DNA of 13,789 bases from Clostridia bacterium (GTDB lineage: Bacteria > Bacillota > Clostridia > Oscillospirales > Acutalibacteraceae). The stretch's first letter is position 1, and every line of letters starts with the position of its first letter. The notes beneath the pieces were generated by a model, which made no database searches, was not told where the DNA came from, and saw nothing but the letters and a program-made list of their open reading frames with translations. Below are positions 106 through 13,472 of the stretch, piece after piece. The translations under genes were made by a program, and so were the position numbers. The stretch is taken from NCBI GenBank assembly GCA_900752115.1, contig CAADUC010000084.1, positions 1-13,789 on the forward strand. Reading direction: 5' to 3'.

Positions 106-862
106 TTATCTGGAGCACGAGGGGCGGCCGGAGCAGCCGGAACTGCTCTGTCCCGACTGGCAGCAGGAGCAGTGACTCTCACAGTAATCTCCGCCCGCCT
201 TCGGAGGGAAGAACTCGTCGGTGGGGAAATCAATGCGGCTGAACACGTCACACGGACTGTCGGAGCTCGACGCTGTGCACTCTTTCTCCGGAATGCAGAA
301 ATCGTACGTGGGAATCAGCATCTGCACATTGCGGGAGATCTGAACGATCGTAAACAGGCCGAGGGCGATATAAATGCCGCGGCGGCACGTGTTGTCAAAG
401 CCGCCTCCGTAATGACGGCAGATCCGCTCCGGGATACGGCAGCAGGGATCGCAGTGTGAACAGCAATCCTTAACATAAGCGGCAAGACCAATCGGCTGCG
501 CTACCTGTACGGTTGCCTTAGGCTGGACACGGCTGCAGGCAGGCTCCGCAGACTCACAGGCCGTGTCGGAGCTGAAGGACTTGACGTTGCCTTCACCGCC
601 GTACAGGATCACTTTTTTATTAAAGATCGCAACACCGCTCACCACAACCGAGGCAGCAGACGGAGCCGAGCATATGTCCAGGCAAACGTCGAAGAAGAAC
701 GTCATATCGACGGTGTAAAAGCCCTTATTGAACGGCACAGGCTCCAGATTGAGATAGACCGTAATCACGTCCACACTGCGCAGATGCGCGCTGGTGGCAT
801 TGGCAATCAGTTCACTTTTGTCAGGGGTAAAGTAGACGCGCAGGTCTTCCAGACAATCCTTA
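106..862 (-). CDS. 3' part of an interrupted gene for a conserved Cys-rich protein (codons 33-284)
   Basis: This is the C-terminal 252 codons of a protein whose first 32 codons lie at 2887-2790, on the far side of the recombinase element. The frame is open up to a TGA at 885-883, but no start codon with a ribosome binding site is present; the first usable start is a GTG at 774, inside a conserved-looking stretch, so this piece alone probably makes no normal protein. Visible features are the DKDCLEDLRVYFTPDKSELI segment at the junction, a beta-rich middle containing VDVITVYLNLEPVPFNKGFY, a FFFDV motif, a CCSHCDPCC cluster and a Cys/Ser-rich tail. I recognise it as a conserved clostridial family of unknown function. 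A spore-surface role would fit the cysteine clusters but is a guess. It ends with TAA; I see no convincing terminator in 1-105. Confidence 0.8.
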
Positions 863-870
863 TCACTGCA
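863..870. repeat. Left attachment core (element/3' gene half junction)
   Basis: TCACTGCA on the plus strand (TGCAGTGA on the gene strand), identical to 2790-2797. On the gene strand it is preceded by element sequence (GTCGGT) and followed by gene sequence (TAAGGA). It overlaps the TGA stop codon of the 59-aa element ORF. Confidence 0.85.
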
Positions 871-1042
871 ACCGACGCCGTATCAAATCCATGGCTGCCT
901 GTACAAGCTCGTGCAGACATGCGTCTGCCTCCCCGTTCTGTACAGGCTCCCGAATCAGCACTGTAGGGCCGATCGTGTTTCTGTCCCCCTTCCCTTTCTC
1001 TTCCTCTGTATCGGGATACACGCTTTGTTTCTCTGCGTTCAT
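863..1042 (-). CDS. 59-aa ORF inside the element, unknown function (candidate directionality factor)
   Basis: A short ORF divergent from the recombinase starts with ATG at 1042, with an excellent AAAGGAGG 8 nt upstream. It encodes a hydrophilic N-terminus (about residues 1-24, Glu/Lys-rich) and a predicted amphipathic helix at the C-terminus (DACLHELVQAAMDLIRRRLQ). The TGA stop at 865-863 lies in the left core and is followed at once by TAA. In the excised circle the core would still supply the TGA, so the protein is the same in both states. I do not recognise the family. Small basic or helical proteins encoded next to an attachment site often act as recombination directionality factors, so this is a reasonable candidate on position alone. 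Longer in-frame starts upstream (to 1174) lack an RBS. Confidence 0.6.
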   Translation of the reverse strand: MNAEKQSVYPDTEEEKGKGDRNTIGPTVLIREPVQNGEADACLHELVQAAMDLIRRRLQ

Positions 1043-1304
1043 TTTCTTTTCCTCCTTTCCGTCCGGCACAAAGGGGCAGGCCTCCTGTGCGGGACGCACG
1101 ATAAAGCATAGGAAAAGAAAAAAGTTTTTATGACAATATCCGGAAGATAAAAATTCCAAATTTTTCTGTAACAATCCTTTGCATCCAACAGTATTGGTTG
1201 CGAAGGGGGCCGGAAAGGATCCGGTTTCTTCCTCATACCTATCTTCTTAGAGAGTCCTTTCCGCGAGGTATCCGGACGGCAAGGCTCCAAAAGGAGGTAG
1301 ACGT
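1043..1304. promoter_or_regulatory. Divergent intergenic region between the two element genes
   Basis: This stretch of about 260 bp must hold the start signals of both element genes. It contains the AAAGGAGG of the 59-aa ORF at its left edge and AAAGGAGG of the recombinase at its right edge, with an AT-rich centre (about 1100-1175). I see no sigma-A promoter with both boxes at correct spacing. CATACCTA at 1234-1241 resembles a sigma-E -10 element but has no matching -35, so I do not claim it. Confidence 0.4.
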
Positions 1305-2771
1305 ATGAAAACCTTTCTGTATCTGCGAAAATCGAGAGCTGAGGATCTCTCCGACAGCACGGGCGATACGCTGCGCCGTCACCGGGAAACCCTGGAAGAA
1401 ACGGCGCGCAGCCTTGGTCTGGACGTCTGCGGCGTGTACGAGGAGGTTGTCAGCGGCGAGGATCTGTATGCAAGGCCCGAAATGCTCCGTCTGCTCCGCG
1501 ATGTGCGGGACGGCGCGTGCGAGGCTGTGCTGTGTATGGACATCGACCGTCTCGGCCGCGGTACCATGAGCCAGCAGGGTGTCATCCTTGAAACCTTTAA
1601 GGAAGCCGGCGTGAAGATCATCACACCGCAGAAAACATACGATCTTCTCGATGAGATGGATGAGGATTACACGGAACTGCAAACCTTTTTTGCCCGCAAA
1701 GAGCTCAAGCTGATCAAGAAACGGATGAGACGAGGCGTCGAGCGCACAGCTGCCGATGGGGGTTATCTTGCGAACGCTCCCTACGGCTATTGCAAAACAA
1801 GGCTTGGCAAGCTGCCCACTCTGAGTGTCAACGAGGAAGAAGCCGCTTTTGTAAAACAGATGTTTCTTCTCTATGCACAGGGCGAAGGTGCTCCGGCGAT
1901 TGCCCGTTTTCTCAATGCCTGCGGCGCGCATCCGCGGCGAAGCGAACGATTTACACGAAGCGCCGTCACGGCAATCCTGCACAATCCGGTTTATACCGGA
2001 GCAATTGTGTGGAACCGCCGCCGCTTTGTCCGCTCCGCCGGGCAAACCCCATTATGCCGGAAAATTGAAAACGATCCGGAACATTGGCTTGTCACAGAGG
2101 GAAAACATCCTGCGCTCATCAGCCGGGAGCTCTTCGATCGGGTACAACAGCGGTTCCAAAACCGCTGCCGGACCTCCGGGGGCGTTCGCTCCCTCGTCAA
2201 TCCCTTTGCAGGATTGATTCGCTGCGCCAACTGCGGCGGACTGATGCAGCTTCGCCCCCGCGCCGGCAAACCGGGAGGCTATCTGTTGTGCGAACGCCGC
2301 GGCTGCTGCCCTTCATGCGACTTTGACGCTGCGTCCAAAGCGCTGCATGACGCTCTGATCCCTCTGCTGCGCCGGATTCCCATTTCCGACAGCATGTCCG
2401 GACCACTTGACGATCGCCGCGCAGAGCTTTTGATTCGCGCTCAAAAAAAACTTGAGACGCAGCGCGCAAAACTTTGTGAGCTTCTGGAAACCGGCGTCTA
2501 CTCCCCTGAACTCTACGAGGAGAGACTTCGCATATTGCACGAGCAGGAGGAAAAGCTAACAGAACAGCTTTCCATGCTTTCTCCTTCCCTGCAGCCTCAA
2601 AGACAGACGCAACCACTGACAGCAGCGGACGCGCTCGCTCATGCCGGGCCCGCCGAGGAGAATCGCCTGTGGAAGCTGCTGATTTCCACCATCCTGTACC
2701 GGAAGGAACCAGGTTCACAACGGAATTGCTTCACACTTGAAATCCGGCTTCGGTGCCTTCCTCCGCTATGA
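1305..2771 (+). CDS. Large serine recombinase (resolvase/invertase N-terminus, recombinase domain, zinc ribbon)
   Basis: This 488-aa site-specific recombinase cuts and rejoins attachment sites through a phosphoserine intermediate. The N-terminal resolvase domain (about 1-150) shows YLRKSR with catalytic Ser10 and Arg8, and DIDRLGRG (79-86) with the catalytic arginines 82 and 85. The Recombinase domain follows (about 165-285; NAPYGY, VYTGAIVWNRRRF). A zinc beta-ribbon has C307-x2-C310 and C329-x4-C334. A Leu/Glu/Lys-rich coiled coil (about 365-425) follows. Length is close to that of SpoIVCA (about 500 aa). The start has AAAGGAGG 7-8 nt upstream. It ends 18 bp before the right core. All catalytic residues are intact, so the enzyme is probably active. 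The element around it interrupts a host gene, which makes this the enzyme that inserted the element and might excise it. Confidence 0.95.
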   Translation: MKTFLYLRKSRAEDLSDSTGDTLRRHRETLEETARSLGLDVCGVYEEVVSGEDLYARPEMLRLLRDVRDGACEAVLCMDIDRLGRGTMSQQGVILETFKEAGVKIITPQKTYDLLDEMDEDYTELQTFFARKELKLIKKRMRRGVERTAADGGYLANAPYGYCKTRLGKLPTLSVNEEEAAFVKQMFLLYAQGEGAPAIARFLNACGAHPRRSERFTRSAVTAILHNPVYTGAIVWNRRRFVRSAGQTPLCRKIENDPEHWLVTEGKHPALISRELFDRVQQRFQNRCRTSGGVRSLVNPFAGLIRCANCGGLMQLRPRAGKPGGYLLCERRGCCPSCDFDAASKALHDALIPLLRRIPISDSMSGPLDDRRAELLIRAQKKLETQRAKLCELLETGVYSPELYEERLRILHEQEEKLTEQLSMLSPSLQPQRQTQPLTAADALAHAGPAEENRLWKLLISTILYRKEPGSQRNCFTLEIRLRCLPPL

Positions 2772-2806
2772 CAGAAGGACGGTTGCGTTTCACTGCAGCT
2801 GTCATA
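2767..2806. repeat. 8-bp inverted repeat straddling the right attachment core
   Basis: TATGACAG (2767-2774, containing the recombinase stop codon) and CTGTCATA (2799-2806, host-gene codons for YDS) form a perfect inverted repeat flanking the core at unequal distances. One arm belongs to the element and the other to the interrupted gene, so the symmetry exists only in the integrated state. It may be coincidence. Confidence 0.5.
2790..2797. repeat. Right attachment core (5' gene half/element junction)
   Basis: Second copy of TCACTGCA. On the gene strand it is preceded by gene sequence (GACAGC) and followed by element sequence (AACGCA). Reconstructing attP by joining the element ends gives partial dyad symmetry around the core, with ACGG on one side and CCGT on the other at equal distance and 7 of 11 arm positions complementary. 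The centre of symmetry falls on the central AG of TGCAGTGA. Confidence 0.85.
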
Positions 2807-2887
2807 AACGCGCATGGCGTCGATGCAGACCGCTTCCTTAAAGCCATTCGACGCGCATCCCGTCGAAACAAAACCGTTTTCATCCAT
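2790..2887 (-). CDS. 5' part of the interrupted Cys-rich protein gene (codons 1-32)
   Basis: An ATG at 2887 is preceded by AGGAGG at 8-nt spacing, a good initiation site. It encodes MDENGFVSTGCASNGFKEAV and then CIDAMRVYDSCS, reaching the 8-bp core at 2797-2790. After the core the frame runs on into element DNA as unrelated sequence (ETQPSF...) and stops at 2639, antisense to the recombinase 3' end, giving an 82-codon chimeric ORF. Joining base 2790 to base 862 restores an uninterrupted frame: 98 + 757 = 855 nt, i.e. 284 codons plus stop. The joined junction YDSCS-DKDCLEDL matches what I know of intact relatives of this family, which is the main reason to treat the two pieces as one gene. The retained start and RBS suggest the gene is recently or reversibly interrupted rather than decayed. 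Confidence 0.85.
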
Positions 2888-3191
2888 AGCAGAATCCTCC
2901 TAGCATGACTCAATTGAGCGATAGTCTGAGAACAGTACCGTCGGAAACTTTCGCCGCCGCTTTCCCGGCACTCTTTCTGGAAATATGCCGGACCAGAGCG
3001 TCTGACCGGAGCGTCCGCCGTTACTCTACTATCAATGTATTGCACAGCCGGAATATTTGTGCCAAAAACCTTTTCCTCCGGCAAAGGATCGCGAAAACAG
3101 CTGCCAGGCGCGCATCATCCAAACCGCCGCGCGCTTTGCCAAATACAGTATACCAAAAAACAAAACAAATAAAAGAAAGGCAGAATGAATA
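2888..3191. other. Intergenic region between the split gene and the DUF4358 operon
   Basis: This 304-bp divergent region must contain the promoter of the split Cys-rich gene (minus) and of the surface operon (plus). It contains the palindrome CTCAATTGAG at 2909-2918, just upstream of the minus-strand RBS, a possible operator. It ends in an A-rich stretch before 3192. I could not find a promoter with both boxes at acceptable spacing on either strand. ORFs crossing it lack RBSs and look spurious. Confidence 0.4.
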
Positions 3192-3905
3192 ATGAAAAAG
3201 AAACTTCTTGCTACCCTGCTTGCCTGTGCCATGCTGGCCACCCTGTTTGCCTCCTGCTCCACCGGCGACACTTCCTCTTCCGCCTCCTCCGACGCCGCGT
3301 CGTCTGAGAGCGTTTCTTCCGAAATGGAAGAGGAATCTTCCGAGGCCGCTTCTTCCGAGACCAGCGAGGAATCCTCTGAGACGCCCGCCGCTCCCGACTC
3401 CTCCGCCCCCTCCGAGAGCCAGGGCGCATCCTCGAACGGAAGCTCCGCCTCCGCAGACGTTTCTCTGAATACCATTTTGGACGCCGTCAAGAATGCGTAC
3501 GGCGAGTCTTACCTTCCTTCCATGGATTTGACCGCAGAGGATCTCGATGCGCGCTATGGCCTCAAGGCTGACGATTATGATGAGGCGCTCGGACAGGTCG
3601 CCATGATCAGCACGCAGGTCGATACCTTCGTGGCTGTCAAGGCCAAGGAAGGCAAAGCGGACGCCGTGGTTTCCGCTCTGAACGCTTACCGCGACGATCT
3701 TGTCAACAACTCGATGCAGTACCCCATGAACGTACCGAAGGTTAACGCCTCTCAGGTGTATCAGAACGGAAACTATGTGTTCTTCATCATGCTCGGCGAC
3801 TTTGCTCCCGAAGATATGATGGCTGACGATCCAGAAACTGTGACATTCTATGAGGAGCAGAATCAGATTGCTGTCAAGGCAATTGACGAAGCCCTGGCCG
3901 GTTAA
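3192..3905 (+). CDS. DUF4358 lipoprotein with Ser/Glu-rich linker
   Basis: This 237-aa exported protein has a basic n-region and hydrophobic core (residues 1-21) followed by FASC, with Cys22 as the probable lipidated residue (a slightly atypical lipobox, Phe at -3). Residues 23 to about 92 are a low-complexity Ser/Glu/Ala linker that probably spans the wall. Residues about 95-237 form a DUF4358 domain, recognisable from VSLNTILDAV, QVDTFVAVKAKEGKADAVVS and NGNYVFFIMLGD. The domain's function is unknown; in clostridia it is often next to MBOAT/DHHW acyltransferase genes, as here. AGAAAGG lies about 11 nt upstream of the ATG, a loose spacing. A strong terminator-like hairpin follows directly, separating it partly from the next gene. 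Confidence 0.9.
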   Translation: MKKKLLATLLACAMLATLFASCSTGDTSSSASSDAASSESVSSEMEEESSEAASSETSEESSETPAAPDSSAPSESQGASSNGSSASADVSLNTILDAVKNAYGESYLPSMDLTAEDLDARYGLKADDYDEALGQVAMISTQVDTFVAVKAKEGKADAVVSALNAYRDDLVNNSMQYPMNVPKVNASQVYQNGNYVFFIMLGDFAPEDMMADDPETVTFYEEQNQIAVKAIDEALAG

Positions 3906-5438: not shown

Positions 5439-6584
5439 ATGAAAGAAAAGCTTGCCGCCTGGCTTCCGATCGGCGTTTTTCTCTGCCTGATCGCCCTGCT
5501 CTCCGCATGGAATTTGCTGCGTCCGACCCGCACGTTCTCCGAAAACGAGAATCGCGTACTGACACAGTTTCCGGAACTCTCCGTAGAATCCGTTCTCGAG
5601 GGCACATTCTCGGAAAAATACGAGGAATACCTCGCCGACCAGTTTCCAATGCGCGACAGCTGGATCTCTCTGAAAACGCGCACAGAGCTTTTACTCGGAA
5701 AAAAGGACATCAACAATGTGTTCTTTGGAAAAAATGGCTGGTTGATTGACAAGTACAAGGGTACACTCTCGGAAGAACGAACGCAGGCCAATCTGGAGCG
5801 GCTCGGAAGTTTCATGCAGTTCGCCGCGGAAAAACTGGGTTCCGACCATGTGCGGGCCATGCTTGTCCCCACCGCAAGCGGCGTTCTCGACAACAGGATG
5901 CCTGCCTTTGCCTCCGATTTCGATCAGGCAGCTTTGCTTGAGAAAGCGGCTGCTCTGTGTCCCGACGACACCTTTCTGAATCTTCTGCCACTGCTTCAGG
6001 AGCACAAAGAGGAGCCCATCTATTACCGGACCGATCACCACTGGACTACGCTCGGTGCATTCTACGGCTATACCGCATGGGCGGAAAGTATCGGTTTGAC
6101 GCCCTACGGCAGGGAGGACTTTTCGGAGGAAACGGTCACCGACGACTTTTACGGCACTACCCATTCCAAAATTAACCTCCCCGTTTATCCCGACAGCATC
6201 ATTCGCTATACTCCCCGCTTTCCTGCCGCGTATCACCTCATCTTTAATCTCGGAGAAAAAGAGAGCGACAGCCTGTACGATGAGTCCAAGCTTGAAGGGA
6301 AGGACAAGTATTCCTACTTCCTCGGCGGAAACAATCCGATTGTCACGATCACCTCATCGACGGGCGAGAAAGGCCGCCGCCTGCTGATTATAAAGGATTC
6401 CTATTCGCATTGCTTTGCTCCCTTTGCCGTCAACCATTTTGAAGAAACGACACTCATCGATTTGCGTTACTTCAACCTCGGCGTCCAGACCTTCCTGGAG
6501 CAGGAAGACTTTACCGACGTTCTTGTTTTATACAGTACCGCCAATTTTGCCGACGACCGAAATCTGAACACTCTGGTCAAGTGA
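5439..6584 (+). CDS. DHHW family protein (AlgJ/AlgX-like SGNH-fold acetyltransfer partner)
   Basis: The 381-aa protein has a single N-terminal signal anchor (about 8-28) and an extracytoplasmic domain. The family signatures are FSENENRVLTQFP (about 35-47), TDHHW with Asp199 and His200, and IIKDSYSHCF with candidate nucleophile Ser321; these would form a catalytic triad like that of AlgX/AlgJ. Such proteins take the acyl group handled by the MBOAT partner and place it on a polysaccharide outside the membrane. The start has AAGGAGG 8 nt upstream, and the gene follows the MBOAT gene by 12 nt, a tight operon. It is last in the operon; a long-stem terminator lies about 95 nt downstream. All motif residues are present. 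Confidence 0.93.
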   Translation: MKEKLAAWLPIGVFLCLIALLSAWNLLRPTRTFSENENRVLTQFPELSVESVLEGTFSEKYEEYLADQFPMRDSWISLKTRTELLLGKKDINNVFFGKNGWLIDKYKGTLSEERTQANLERLGSFMQFAAEKLGSDHVRAMLVPTASGVLDNRMPAFASDFDQAALLEKAAALCPDDTFLNLLPLLQEHKEEPIYYRTDHHWTTLGAFYGYTAWAESIGLTPYGREDFSEETVTDDFYGTTHSKINLPVYPDSIIRYTPRFPAAYHLIFNLGEKESDSLYDESKLEGKDKYSYFLGGNNPIVTITSSTGEKGRRLLIIKDSYSHCFAPFAVNHFEETTLIDLRYFNLGVQTFLEQEDFTDVLVLYSTANFADDRNLNTLVK

Positions 6585-7015: not shown

Positions 7016-7822
7016 TCAGGCCGTCAGTTCCTGCAGCGTACCAAAACTGTACCCAAGGCTTTCCCACTTCGTCAGCAGTTCGTCGAGAATTTCACAGTTT
7101 GTCTTCGAAGTGCTGTGCAGCAGGACAACTGCTCCGGGGTGGACACGCGGAATCAGCTTTTCAAACGCCTGTTCTGCGGTCGGCTGATTGTCCTGATACC
7201 AGTCCACATAAGCCAGACTCCAGAAAACCGTGGTATAACCAAGCTCCTGGGCCATTTTAAGATTTGGCTCACTGTATTTTCCCTGCGGAGGACGATAAAA
7301 CTTCTGCATCTCCTGTCCCGTGATTTCCCGATAGGCATCTTCCACACTCTGAAGTTCCTTTTGGAATGAGGTCGTATCGGAAATCTGGGACATATCATAA
7401 TGATGGTAGGTATGATTCGCGACAGTATGCCCTTCTTCCGCCATACGCCGGACAAGCTCGGGACTTGTCTCAAGGTAATTGCCCACGACGAAGAAGGCTG
7501 CCTTCACCTGATGCTTTGCAAGCGTATCGAGAATCGACGCCGTATAGCCGGCTTCATATCCCGCATCAAATGTAAGATAGATCGTTTTCTCCGAGGCGTC
7601 TCCTGCATACCAGGCGTCGTACTGTGCAAGATACTCCGCAGATGCATTGCCGACCGGCGTTTCTCCTTCCTTCTGAAAGCTGAGTCCCCAGTTGGTGTCT
7701 GCTCCTGCAGCAGCCTGCACGGTGTCCGCCTGCAAGCGGTTGGCTCCAACGGGTATCATGGCAAGTGCAAACAGTACGGCGGCTGCCGCGATCATATGCT
7801 GTTTCCGGATAATGGCAAACAT
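7016..7822 (-). CDS. pdaA: Polysaccharide deacetylase, PdaA-like (muramic delta-lactam synthesis in spore cortex)
   Basis: This 268-aa exported NodB-fold deacetylase has a signal peptide (about 1-33) followed by WGLSF, typical of PdaA proteins, which carry WGF at this place. Motif 1 is TFDAGYE with catalytic Asp86 and Ala87 where ordinary deacetylases have a second Asp; B. subtilis PdaA has Asn there. Motif 2 is NHTYHH (His137 and His141 as metal ligands), motif 3 is YRPPQGKYSE (Arg177), then FWSLAYVDW and HPGAVVLLH (His236). PdaA removes the acetyl group of N-acetylmuramic acid after peptide trimming, giving the delta-lactam that germination lytic enzymes recognise. The start has AGGAGG upstream; a sigma-G-like promoter is visible. 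Another PdaA-family member with a vegetative role is the main alternative. Confidence 0.85.
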   Translation of the reverse strand: MFAIIRKQHMIAAAAVLFALAMIPVGANRLQADTVQAAAGADTNWGLSFQKEGETPVGNASAEYLAQYDAWYAGDASEKTIYLTFDAGYEAGYTASILDTLAKHQVKAAFFVVGNYLETSPELVRRMAEEGHTVANHTYHHYDMSQISDTTSFQKELQSVEDAYREITGQEMQKFYRPPQGKYSEPNLKMAQELGYTTVFWSLAYVDWYQDNQPTAEQAFEKLIPRVHPGAVVLLHSTSKTNCEILDELLTKWESLGYSFGTLQELTA

Positions 7823-7847
7823 TGCCGTCCCTCCCCTCCTGCTTTAT

Positions 7848-7876
7848 GAGTATGCAGCCCGACAGGCGCATATACA
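7848..7876 (-). promoter_or_regulatory. Possible sigma-G promoter for the PdaA-like gene
   Basis: On the minus strand TGTATA (7876-7871) is followed after 16 nt by CATACTC (7854-7848), close to the forespore consensus (GnATA, 17-18 nt, CATACTA). It ends 25 nt before the start codon, giving a very short leader that begins at the RBS. B. subtilis pdaA is sigma-G controlled, which fits. Confidence 0.4.
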
Positions 7877-7902
7877 TCAAATCGCCCGCCATACCGGAGG
7901 AC

Positions 7903-7932
7903 TTGCCATACTGCGCTTTGCTGTAGTATAAT
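7903..7932 (+). promoter_or_regulatory. Sigma-A promoter for the Crp/Fnr gene
   Basis: TTGCCA (7903-7908), an 18-nt spacer and a perfect TATAAT (7927-7932). Transcription would start near 7940, leaving an untranslated leader of about 320 nt before the start codon at 8261. Confidence 0.65.
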
Positions 7933-7984
7933 GACGGCATATCCTGTGATGAGACGCCATCAAACGAAGTTCAGAAAACAGAAG

Positions 7985-12239: not shown

Positions 12240-12548
12240 CTAATTTCCGGCTATATTGACAAACACACGCTCGCCCGGTTTCGCGTAGTCAAGCTCTTCC
12301 CTGGCATACCGCTCAATGTACTCATCGTTTTGCTCCGAGTTGTCTGAAAGAGCGCGGCGCAGCTCTTCGTTTTTTATGTTCTGCTCCTCGAGCTGCTGCT
12401 GCATCTCGCCGAGCTGACGCGACTTTTCGCTGATCTGCACCTGCTGATTGACCAGAGCGGCTATCATGTAGATGGAGAACGCGCAAATCGCGATCTTCAG
12501 CAAAAGACTGGTTTTCTGCTTCTTCGTTTTGTTCTGAATCACACGCAT
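12240..12548 (-). CDS. divIC: Septum formation initiator DivIC/FtsB family
   Basis: The 102-aa bitopic division protein has a basic cytoplasmic N-terminus (1-14), one transmembrane helix (about 15-36), a coiled coil (about 38-75, with repeated Gln/Glu/Leu) and the short conserved C-terminal part EYIERYAREELDYAKPGERVFV. It acts with FtsL and DivIB in the divisome. Its place after yabQ and before yabR matches B. subtilis and supports the DivIC name over other FtsB-like proteins. The RBS is weak (AGGGCGGG region). The reading frame of yabQ runs across the first 227 nt of this gene in another frame. Confidence 0.92.
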   Translation of the reverse strand: MRVIQNKTKKQKTSLLLKIAICAFSIYMIAALVNQQVQISEKSRQLGEMQQQLEEQNIKNEELRRALSDNSEQNDEYIERYAREELDYAKPGERVFVNIAGN

Positions 12549-13083
12549 GCATCATCCCGCCCTTTCGCGCAGGCGTACGCTTTTTTCGCCGCACTCCTGA
12601 AGATACAGTTCGATTATACACTACTTTCCGGGGCGGTTTCAAGGCTTTTTTCCGCTGTTCACGGATTTTTTTCCTCAGACTGTCCGCACGGCCATAAATA
12701 CGGCGCAAAATACCCTTACACCAGGCGGCGAGACGCCGCAGCGGACGAAACAAAATCCTCTCAAGCAGCCAAAGGACCGCCTTCGTCAGCCGGACGGTTA
12801 CCCGGCCGAGAGTCACCGCATAAGCGCACCAGCCGATCCCCTCTCCCAAAAACAAATAGAAGCGAAGTACGCCGCTGCTGGCCGCCAATGCTGTGAGAAA
12901 CGTGAGAAAGGCACAGAGGACGACAACTGCCGTATCAAGAAAAAAGCTCTGCCTCCTCGGCGGGCGCATCAAAAGCCGGTAAACGCGCGCCGCATCGTAT
13001 ATGGCGCCCAAAACGACCCCCATGATAACGGCAAGCAGGAACCCTCTTATCTGCGCCTCAAGAGGGAGGTTCATCTCCGTCAT
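12322..13083 (-). CDS. yabQ: YabQ, spore cortex biosynthesis membrane protein (with an extended C-terminus)
   Basis: YabQ is a mother-cell membrane protein needed for spore cortex formation. Residues about 10-95 show hydrophobic segments and the family pattern LEAQIRGFLLAVIMGVVLGA followed by IYDAARVYR; residues about 100-170 are highly basic, with KPPRKVVYNRTV. The start overlaps the yabP stop as ATGA, indicating translational coupling. At 253 aa it is longer than B. subtilis YabQ (about 211). From about codon 179 the frame lies over divIC in a different phase and reads as low-complexity sequence rich in Arg, Ala, Glu and Ser. A TGA just before the divIC ATG (12554-12552) is one base out of phase, so a small indel, real or a sequencing error, may have removed the normal stop. 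Confidence 0.88.
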   Translation of the reverse strand: MTEMNLPLEAQIRGFLLAVIMGVVLGAIYDAARVYRLLMRPPRRQSFFLDTAVVVLCAFLTFLTALAASSGVLRFYLFLGEGIGWCAYAVTLGRVTVRLTKAVLWLLERILFRPLRRLAAWCKGILRRIYGRADSLRKKIREQRKKALKPPRKVVYNRTVSSGVRRKKRTPARKGGMMHACDSEQNEEAENQSFAEDRDLRVLHLHDSRSGQSAGADQRKVASARRDAAAARGAEHKKRRAAPRSFRQLGAKR

Positions 13084-13355
13084 CGGAACAAACGGGAAAG
13101 CATCCCGCCATTCTGACGTCCCTGCGTATACGTCAGGGAATCCACCTCACCTGTAAGCGTCAGCTCGCCCGTTTCAATGTTCAGCCGGTTAATATGCAGA
13201 CCGCTGCCTTTCACCACCAGCTCTCCGAGATCGGTATACGCTACAATCGTCTGCTCGTCAAAGCTGTCCACGTTCGACACGCCTGTGGCGGTAAACGCTT
13301 TCCTGTTCTCCAGAATCACGCTGTGAGGCAGCTTCTGCTTTTTTTCTTCCGTCAT
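13080..13355 (-). CDS. yabP: YabP family sporulation protein
   Basis: The 91-aa protein matches YabP, a small sporulation protein expressed in the mother cell and needed for normal cortex formation; it shares a fold family with YqfC. Typical parts are LPHSVILENRKAFTATGVSN, VDSFDEQTIVAYTDLGEL and KGSGLHINRLNIETGELTLTG. I chose the ATG at 13355, preceded by GGAGGG 7 nt upstream; the longer in-frame reading to 13421 does not resemble the family. The stop overlaps the yabQ start. A sigma-E-like promoter lies about 120 nt upstream of the ATG, in the gap after the yabO/rqcP gene. Confidence 0.93.
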   Translation of the reverse strand: MTEEKKQKLPHSVILENRKAFTATGVSNVDSFDEQTIVAYTDLGELVVKGSGLHINRLNIETGELTLTGEVDSLTYTQGRQNGGMLSRLFR

Positions 13356-13472
13356 ACACAGTCCCTCCGCTCGGCAATGTTTTCCATTCGAGGATTCCGC
13401 GAGGACAGGAAACGCTTTCACGGGATGTCCGGGAATACCGGCCGTACAGCGCTCTGCCTCCGGGGATAGTAA

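Follow-up and report, generated by a model that had tools for sequence, protein, structure and literature searches.

A cysteine-rich gene split by a small recombinase element in a gut Clostridia bacterium and its relatives, and its probable restoration during sporulation

How can a gene that is cut in two by another piece of DNA still be under selection in both of its parts? The question is raised by a 13,789-nt contig stretch of Clostridia bacterium, a gut bacterium (this whole stretch is called the window below), in which a cysteine-rich gene of the minus strand lies in two parts (2887-2790 and 862-106) divided by a 1,927-bp insert (863-2789) that carries a large serine recombinase. The answer that we favour, and that we hold to be probable as a whole, is that the split gene is rebuilt by excision of the insert in the mother cell during sporulation, giving a 284-aa protein.

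When the two flanks are joined they form 855 nt (284 codons plus stop) in a single frame, with a junction that reads DSCS-DKDCLEDL; AGGAGG stands ahead of the start codon at 2901-2896, and the 3' half is open in the window as in five relatives described below. A first-pass annotation of the same DNA had already given the coordinates of both halves, their in-frame join, the intact start and ribosome-binding site (RBS) of the 5' half and the open 3' half, and all of these hold. Compared with the databases, as that annotation had suggested, the joined 284-aa sequence finds 2,433 matches at E <= 0.001, the best 120 of which are listed, and its homologs read through the junction without a break: CIDAMRVYDSCSDKDCLEDL, or a near variant, is uninterrupted in 14 of 18 aligned rows (the joined query being one of the 14). 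The remaining four rows (P0121, P0122, P0123 and P0219) are 3' fragments, the first three of them being the three top-scoring matches. Since the C-terminal residues of P0121 and P0219 match those of the 3' halves of two relatives (loci L002 and L005), we take these fragment entries to be the same split in related genomes. A gene that becomes intact and in frame on joining, with continuous homologs, is a mark of skin-like elements.

The recombinase alignment was scanned against one genome per species, and the best 80 of 161 loci were kept (L001-L080). The nearest five, L001-L005, come from Ca. Caccousia avicola, Anaeromassilibacillus sp. An200, two uncultured relatives and Ca. Caccousia avistercoris; their elements measure 1,908, 1,913, 1,763, 1,893 and 1,878 bp, and sit at the same codon as in the window. 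The genus of L001, when searched, yielded precisely the five genomes that carry these loci, and the gene is split in all five, each with the two halves only and no further copy found (E <= 0.001). Divergence was compared over the 15 pairs that can be drawn from six loci, the window and L001-L005. For the 3' half, synonymous divergence (dS) is 0.9-2.0 in 14 pairs and 0.26 for L001-L002, with a ratio of nonsynonymous to synonymous divergence (dN/dS, from Nei-Gojobori counts) of 0.02-0.15; this half is open in all six. For the 5' half the ratio is 0.04-0.22 in 14 of 15 pairs, a rough figure given that 90-96 nt are compared, L001 and L002 being identical; for the recombinase it is 0.08-0.38. Both gene halves are thus under purifying selection despite heavy synonymous divergence. 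Such low dN/dS in both halves at high dS suggests that they are joined at some time, and this is our strongest argument for it.

Two other explanations have to face these numbers. According to the first, the insertion is fixed and the gene dead, with no excision at all, and the halves look intact merely through recency. The lack of any excised form among the best 120 of the 2,433 matches would agree with this, as would the fact that the gene is unmatched in 35 of 234 genomes positive for SpoIVA; however, halves that are all open, with low dN/dS, at a dS of 0.9-2.0 in 14 of 15 carrier pairs do not look recent, and the symmetry of the attP site (see below) is kept in several carriers though the sequences of its arms differ. 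We find this explanation very improbable. According to the second, each half functions as a protein of its own, or the joining takes place in the RNA or during translation, which would also explain selection on both. Yet the conserved stretch CIDAMRVYDSCSDKDCLEDL is itself interrupted by the cut; the read-on of the 5' half into the element varies in sequence and stops at different places in the window, L002 and L004; and the 3' half has no in-frame ATG, GTG or TTG before residue 63. As to joining at the RNA level, no group I or II intron was recognised, intron RNA families being without a match at E <= 1 in 700-3200. This second explanation seems to us scarcely credible.

The borders of the element fit the reading by DNA excision. 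The minus strand of the window contains TGCAGTGA at just two places (2797-2790 and 870-863) and the plus strand at none, so that the shared junction sequence reported in the first-pass annotation is found at both borders and nowhere else. Serine integrases cross over at a dinucleotide, and GA is present on both sides at the crossover place in 16 of the 18 elements with both ends, L014 and L054 having TC on both sides. In the window the rebuilt attP is a dyad, CGGTTGC-N8-GCAACCG, centred exactly at the GA of the shared core. The symmetry was tested in 16 of the 18 elements (L014 and L054 being left out for their TC): taken as a set, the rebuilt attP sites are dyads about GA with a mean best run of 8.1 (n=16, range 4 to 14.5, the longest in L036), versus 3.6 with ends swapped between elements, 2.4 for attB and 2.5 in shuffles (sd 0.27, maximum 3.4 of 200). 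The arms vary by species while the symmetry is kept in several, as in the window (CGGTTGC/GCAACCG), L001 (AGGTTGC/GCAACCT) and L003 (GGCGGTTGC/GCAACCGCC). A shared core with inverted repeats at the ends is again what characterises skin-like elements.

So does the presence, within the element, of its own site-specific recombinase. The enzyme appears intact, as had been claimed at first sight: besides its Resolvase and Recombinase domains it keeps the YLRKSR motif, and serine 10, which we take to be the catalytic serine, is invariant across 11 aligned rows. Its orientation is opposite to that of the cysteine-rich gene in the window and in L001-L005. The follow-up analysis also found a 59-aa open reading frame (ORF) that had gone unremarked in the first-pass annotation and that is a candidate recombination directionality factor (RDF). 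It is present in 6/6 elements (the window and L001-L005), with a purine-rich, RBS-like stretch ahead of it in all six (GGAGG itself in four), and its C-terminal motif, approximately EEL..L..EAA..I.RRLQ, is common to L001-L004 and weaker in L005. Within the element there is space for no more than the recombinase and this small ORF, and these two are what is found there. Phage structural genes are lacking in these 1,927 bp, and the element is therefore not itself classed as a prophage. The features are collected in Table 1.

Table 1. Features of the split gene and its element in the window, with the loci of other cut positions
Feature	Position	Strand	Remarks
5' half, cysteine-rich gene	2790..2887	-	codons 1-32 and GA of codon 33; start codon at 2887
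3' half, cysteine-rich gene	106..862	-	last base of codon 33 to stop
Intervening element	863..2789	.	1,927 bp
Large serine recombinase, 488 aa	1305..2771	+	Resolvase PF00239, Recombinase PF07508
59-aa ORF, candidate RDF	863..1042	-	starts behind GGAGG; TGA stop within att core
att core TGCAGTGA, gene's 5' side	2790..2797	-	crossover dinucleotide probably GA (2791-2790)
att core TGCAGTGA, gene's 3' side	863..870	-	second copy of core
P half-site CGGTTGC	868..874	-	attP dyad
P' half-site GCAACCG	2780..2786	-	exact inverted partner of 868-874 about GA
TCATACCTATC, promoter candidate only	1233..1243	+	ahead of recombinase; exact in 4/6 elements
Block TTTTTGGCACA...AATACATTG..., promoter candidate only	3015..3068	-	upstream of gene; aligned conserved in window and L001-L005
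Cuts near residue 140-165, other genomes	L091 (G051), L092-L093 (G071), L094 (G143), L095 (G192), L096 (G184)		

Is the element inherited, or does it arrive anew in each lineage? Beyond the 5' half, the neighbouring gene is a DUF4358 gene in 5/5 loci of the genus, followed, again in 5/5, by a gene that we take to be MBOAT-like (a 140-residue part of it in L005); the third neighbour (window gene 5439-6584) is present in 4/5 loci, the sequence of L005 stopping short of its place. In trees of 44 loci, both the recombinase and the gene show the same nested clades, first the window, L001 and L002, then L003, L004 and L005 in turn, with supports of 0.75-1.0 in the recombinase tree and 0.85-1.0 in the gene tree. 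Over these 44 loci the two trees have 16 of 41 clades in common, and their distances correlate at 0.60, with 0 of 2000 permutations as high. Because all five genomes have the element, with conserved neighbours, orientation and size and with matching nested clades, it looks inherited within the genus. The first-pass annotation was right about the insertion and the in-frame restoration, but its alternative, a merely recent selfish insertion, is contradicted by a cut at the same codon in 5/5 genomes of the genus, with neighbours kept, nested clades shared and both halves selected.

The same codon is hit again and again, well beyond the genus too. In 67 of the 80 recombinase loci, L001-L005 included, a half of the gene is cut at the window's place (both halves in 16, the 3' half in 26, the 5' half in 25; L054 has both ends present and is counted in the 5'-half-only class), where 11 of the 67 are counted on weak 5' matches (E 0.07-0.5) that gain support from standing 32-109 nt away from the recombinase. 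In 64 of these loci the distance between the recombinase and the half nearest to it is no more than 1.1 kb, the exceptions being L017 (5.7 kb), L054 (1.7 kb) and L072 (1.35 kb), and elements with both ends in reach measure 1.8-6.9 kb (18 elements, window included). Two genomes, G061 and G024, have the halves about 40 and 37 kb apart, respectively, on a single contig each and at the same codon as in the window; their inserts (L098-L102) carry a family recombinase 45% and 42% identical, together with terminase and tape-measure genes and, in G024, a portal gene, which makes them prophages. The window element belongs to a series that runs from prophage to bare recombination module, and since two same-codon elements are prophages of 37-40 kb, it looks like a natural "mini-skin", presumably worn down from such a phage.

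Thirteen of the 80 loci stay outside this count (L025, L040, L049, L068, L069, L071, L073, L074, L075, L077, L078, L079 and L080). In L069 a 3' part from residue 72 adjoins the recombinase, and in L078 an alignment that sets in at residue 18 continues into the end of the recombinase. L077, from Tepidibacter thalassicus (recombinase 34%), has a truncated sigK adjoining the family recombinase (L077:7563-7967, minus strand), probably a skin element in the classical skin position. In L071, from Oscillibacter sp., an ORF with a CotJA match (7455-7967, minus strand) directly adjoins the recombinase relative; the target in this case could be a spore-coat gene. Among 40 genomes with a related recombinase, the gene is apparently uncut in three (G022, G025 and G040), and its 3' part was not found in G011. 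In G022 a weak 5' half match also lies next to a recombinase on a short contig (L022), beside the apparently uncut copy in the same genome, which would mean either a strain mixture or a second gene copy.

The breadth of the phenomenon was estimated in 247 genomes drawn from the order. The gene is found in 203 of them and is uncut in the great majority. In ten genomes (G001, G016, G030, G033, G061, G065, G117, G168, G245 and G261) a 3' part starts at residue 27-32, and a family recombinase lies beside it in eight of the ten (L001, L016, L030, L033, L098, L107, L108 and L109; 3.7 kb off in L108); G168 showed no recombinase within the stretch examined, and the contig of G261 breaks off just ahead of the 3' part. 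Five others (G051, G071, G143, G184 and G192) are cut near residue 140-165, with recombinases 27-33% identical to that of the window, at distances of 1.9-20 kb and with GTGGAG on both sides in L091, L094 and L095. Finally, G070 (L097) is cut near residue 77, with a recombinase at 36%, and G106 (L114) near residue 166, with one at 38%. The gene therefore appears cut in at least 17 of 203 genomes, with a recombinase seen in 15 of these 17; three genomes with partial matches (G041, G209 and G127) and two with adjacent matches and no insert between them (G171 and G238) were left out. Outside this sample, an uncultured Flavonifractor (G038, L103-L104) has the gene in at least two pieces past the first cut; they cover residues 31-143 and 150-276, are separated by about 13 kb and are each preceded by a recombinase of their own, so two excisions would be needed; a motif search did not find its 5' part on its contig.

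This distribution could also be that of a mobile element or prophage remnant that simply prefers this attB, with a low, unregulated excision in some cells, a gene that is tolerated as mostly off and a restoration that is a by-product of mobility rather than a developmental programme. The same attB is occupied by prophages of 37-40 kb and by elements of many sizes in many genera, the great majority of gene-bearing genomes are uncut, and the excised form is missing from the best 120 of the 2,433 matches. On the other hand, in the genus of L001 everything (5/5 genomes with the element, neighbours, orientation and size conserved, nested clades matching) looks like inheritance, and a dN/dS near 0.1 is not expected of a gene that is mostly off. 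We consider this explanation unlikely.

What links the split gene with the spore? SpoIVA (TIGR02836) is present in 234 of the 247 genomes, 229 of them above the cut-off, and the gene in 199 of 234 SpoIVA-positive versus 4 of 13 SpoIVA-negative genomes (G104, G149, G174 and G235), with Fisher p = 3.5e-5, a value not corrected for kinship. The window itself contains yabP and yabQ, both above their cut-offs, about 10 kb from the split gene. The product is likely a spore protein, and its cysteine content together with the co-occurrence with SpoIVA may point to a role at the spore surface. One cluster among the best 120 of the 2,433 matches bears the UniRef name DUF3794. Elsewhere in the window, 12240-13421 (minus strand) and 7016-7822 (minus strand) hold yabP/yabQ and a polysaccharide deacetylase, as well as a match of the FtsL/FtsB type that is weak and stays below the threshold.

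Several observations weigh against programmed excision in the mother cell and should be set down together. No excised form of the window's lineage appears among the best 120 of 2,433 protein matches: the full-length matches listed there reach at most 69% identity. A scan for the sigma-E consensus ahead of both the recombinase and the gene did no better than shuffles. Since the gene is without a match in 35 of 234 SpoIVA-positive genomes, it may not be essential, and the spore role rests on the co-occurrence with SpoIVA; Pfam scans of the product gave no credible domain, and the search among structures no solved relative. The small ORF, with a ratio of nonsynonymous to synonymous differences (pN/pS) of 0.44-0.78 in the four pairs tested, is weakly constrained; attP symmetry is weak in L062 (run of 4) and L007 (run of 5); and trees of six taxa show a weak mismatch, the recombinase pairing L001 with L002 (1.0) and the gene pairing the window with L002 (0.66).

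We nevertheless think that programmed excision in the mother cell, which the first-pass annotation had put forward, is the best explanation, because the gene is split yet selected and no further copy was found; with no excised form among the best 120 of 2,433 matches and a negative sigma-E scan, the excision, its tie to sporulation and its timing in the mother cell stay at the level of what we infer. In this scenario, the recombinase, likely with the product of the small ORF as directionality factor, would recombine attL with attR and excise the 1,927-bp element. This would take place in the mother cell during sporulation and would restore the 284-aa protein, likely one of the spore; the excised circle would be lost with the mother cell, whereas the split copy would stay in the germ line. 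The element would have begun as a prophage at the same attB, been worn down to its recombination module, and then been passed on from ancestor to descendant, as the host could not restore the gene without it.

Elements that intervene in sporulation genes are already known, namely skin in sigK, SPbeta in spsM, gin in gerE and yin in yabG. A close parallel is skin in sigK of C. difficile (CD1231 and CD1234), where a large serine recombinase and one small RDF are reported to be necessary and sufficient for a precise excision that rebuilds a sporulation gene (PMC5025042); here the small ORF is a candidate RDF and the excision is predicted. Skin is prophage-like and lies in sigK, whereas the window element, in another gene, consists of a recombinase and one ORF in 1.93 kb. 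The gin element in gerE of Bacillus cereus ATCC10987 is likewise a non-prophage element with serine recombinase and RDF (the latter a candidate in our case) in a sporulation gene, but it measures 28.6 kb, has three recombinases and occurs in certain strains of B. cereus and B. toyonensis (PMC5595907); ours measure 1.76-1.93 kb, have one recombinase and are present in all genomes searched of the genus. SPbeta of B. subtilis, whose attB lies in the spore-envelope gene spsM and which is excised during sporulation (PMC4191935), is an active phage, unlike the window element with its lack of phage genes; its counterparts in the present set are the same-codon prophages of 37 and 40 kb in G024 and G061. 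The yin element in yabG of C. botulinum V73, also an intervening element in a sporulation gene, is a prophage that is excised as a circle and is described as unique to one strain (PMC10747680).

The fdxN element of cyanobacteria, whose developmental excision is its known role, deserves mention since the window recombinase matches its enzyme, XisF (NCBIfam recomb_XisF, NF041201, E 2.1e-28). With 99.5 bits against a cut-off of 375, however, the recombinase is not an XisF, and both the organism and the gene are different.

No paper describing an interruption of this gene came to light (aimed searches and a DUF3794 search, covering few subscription journals). As far as this literature shows, the new points are the target gene, the form of less than 2 kb with a recombinase and one ORF, its presence in all genomes searched of a genus, the breadth across the order and the several cut positions. 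Whether the idea can be extended further, to a gene assembled by DNA splicing in many Oscillospirales, with an inherited "DNA intron" of less than 2 kb from a worn-down prophage acting as developmental lock on a spore protein, and with other serine recombinases at other codons (at least one genome, G038, needing two excisions for one protein), we regard as an evenly balanced matter.

There is a caution here for users of databases, in which the halves of such genes can stand as separate proteins (P0121-P0123 and P0219, for example). More generally, one codon is cut in dozens of species by anything from full prophages to a recombinase with one ORF, the smallest form being present in all genomes searched of one genus, and this provides a natural gradation that leads from phage to what appears to be a domesticated switch. 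Its smallest members may serve as minimal excision systems in the laboratory. Two named strains, Anaeromassilibacillus sp. An200 (L002) and Caproiciproducens galactitolivorans BS-1 (L010), offer the material for asking whether such insertions have a regulatory part in the spore or are only tolerated.

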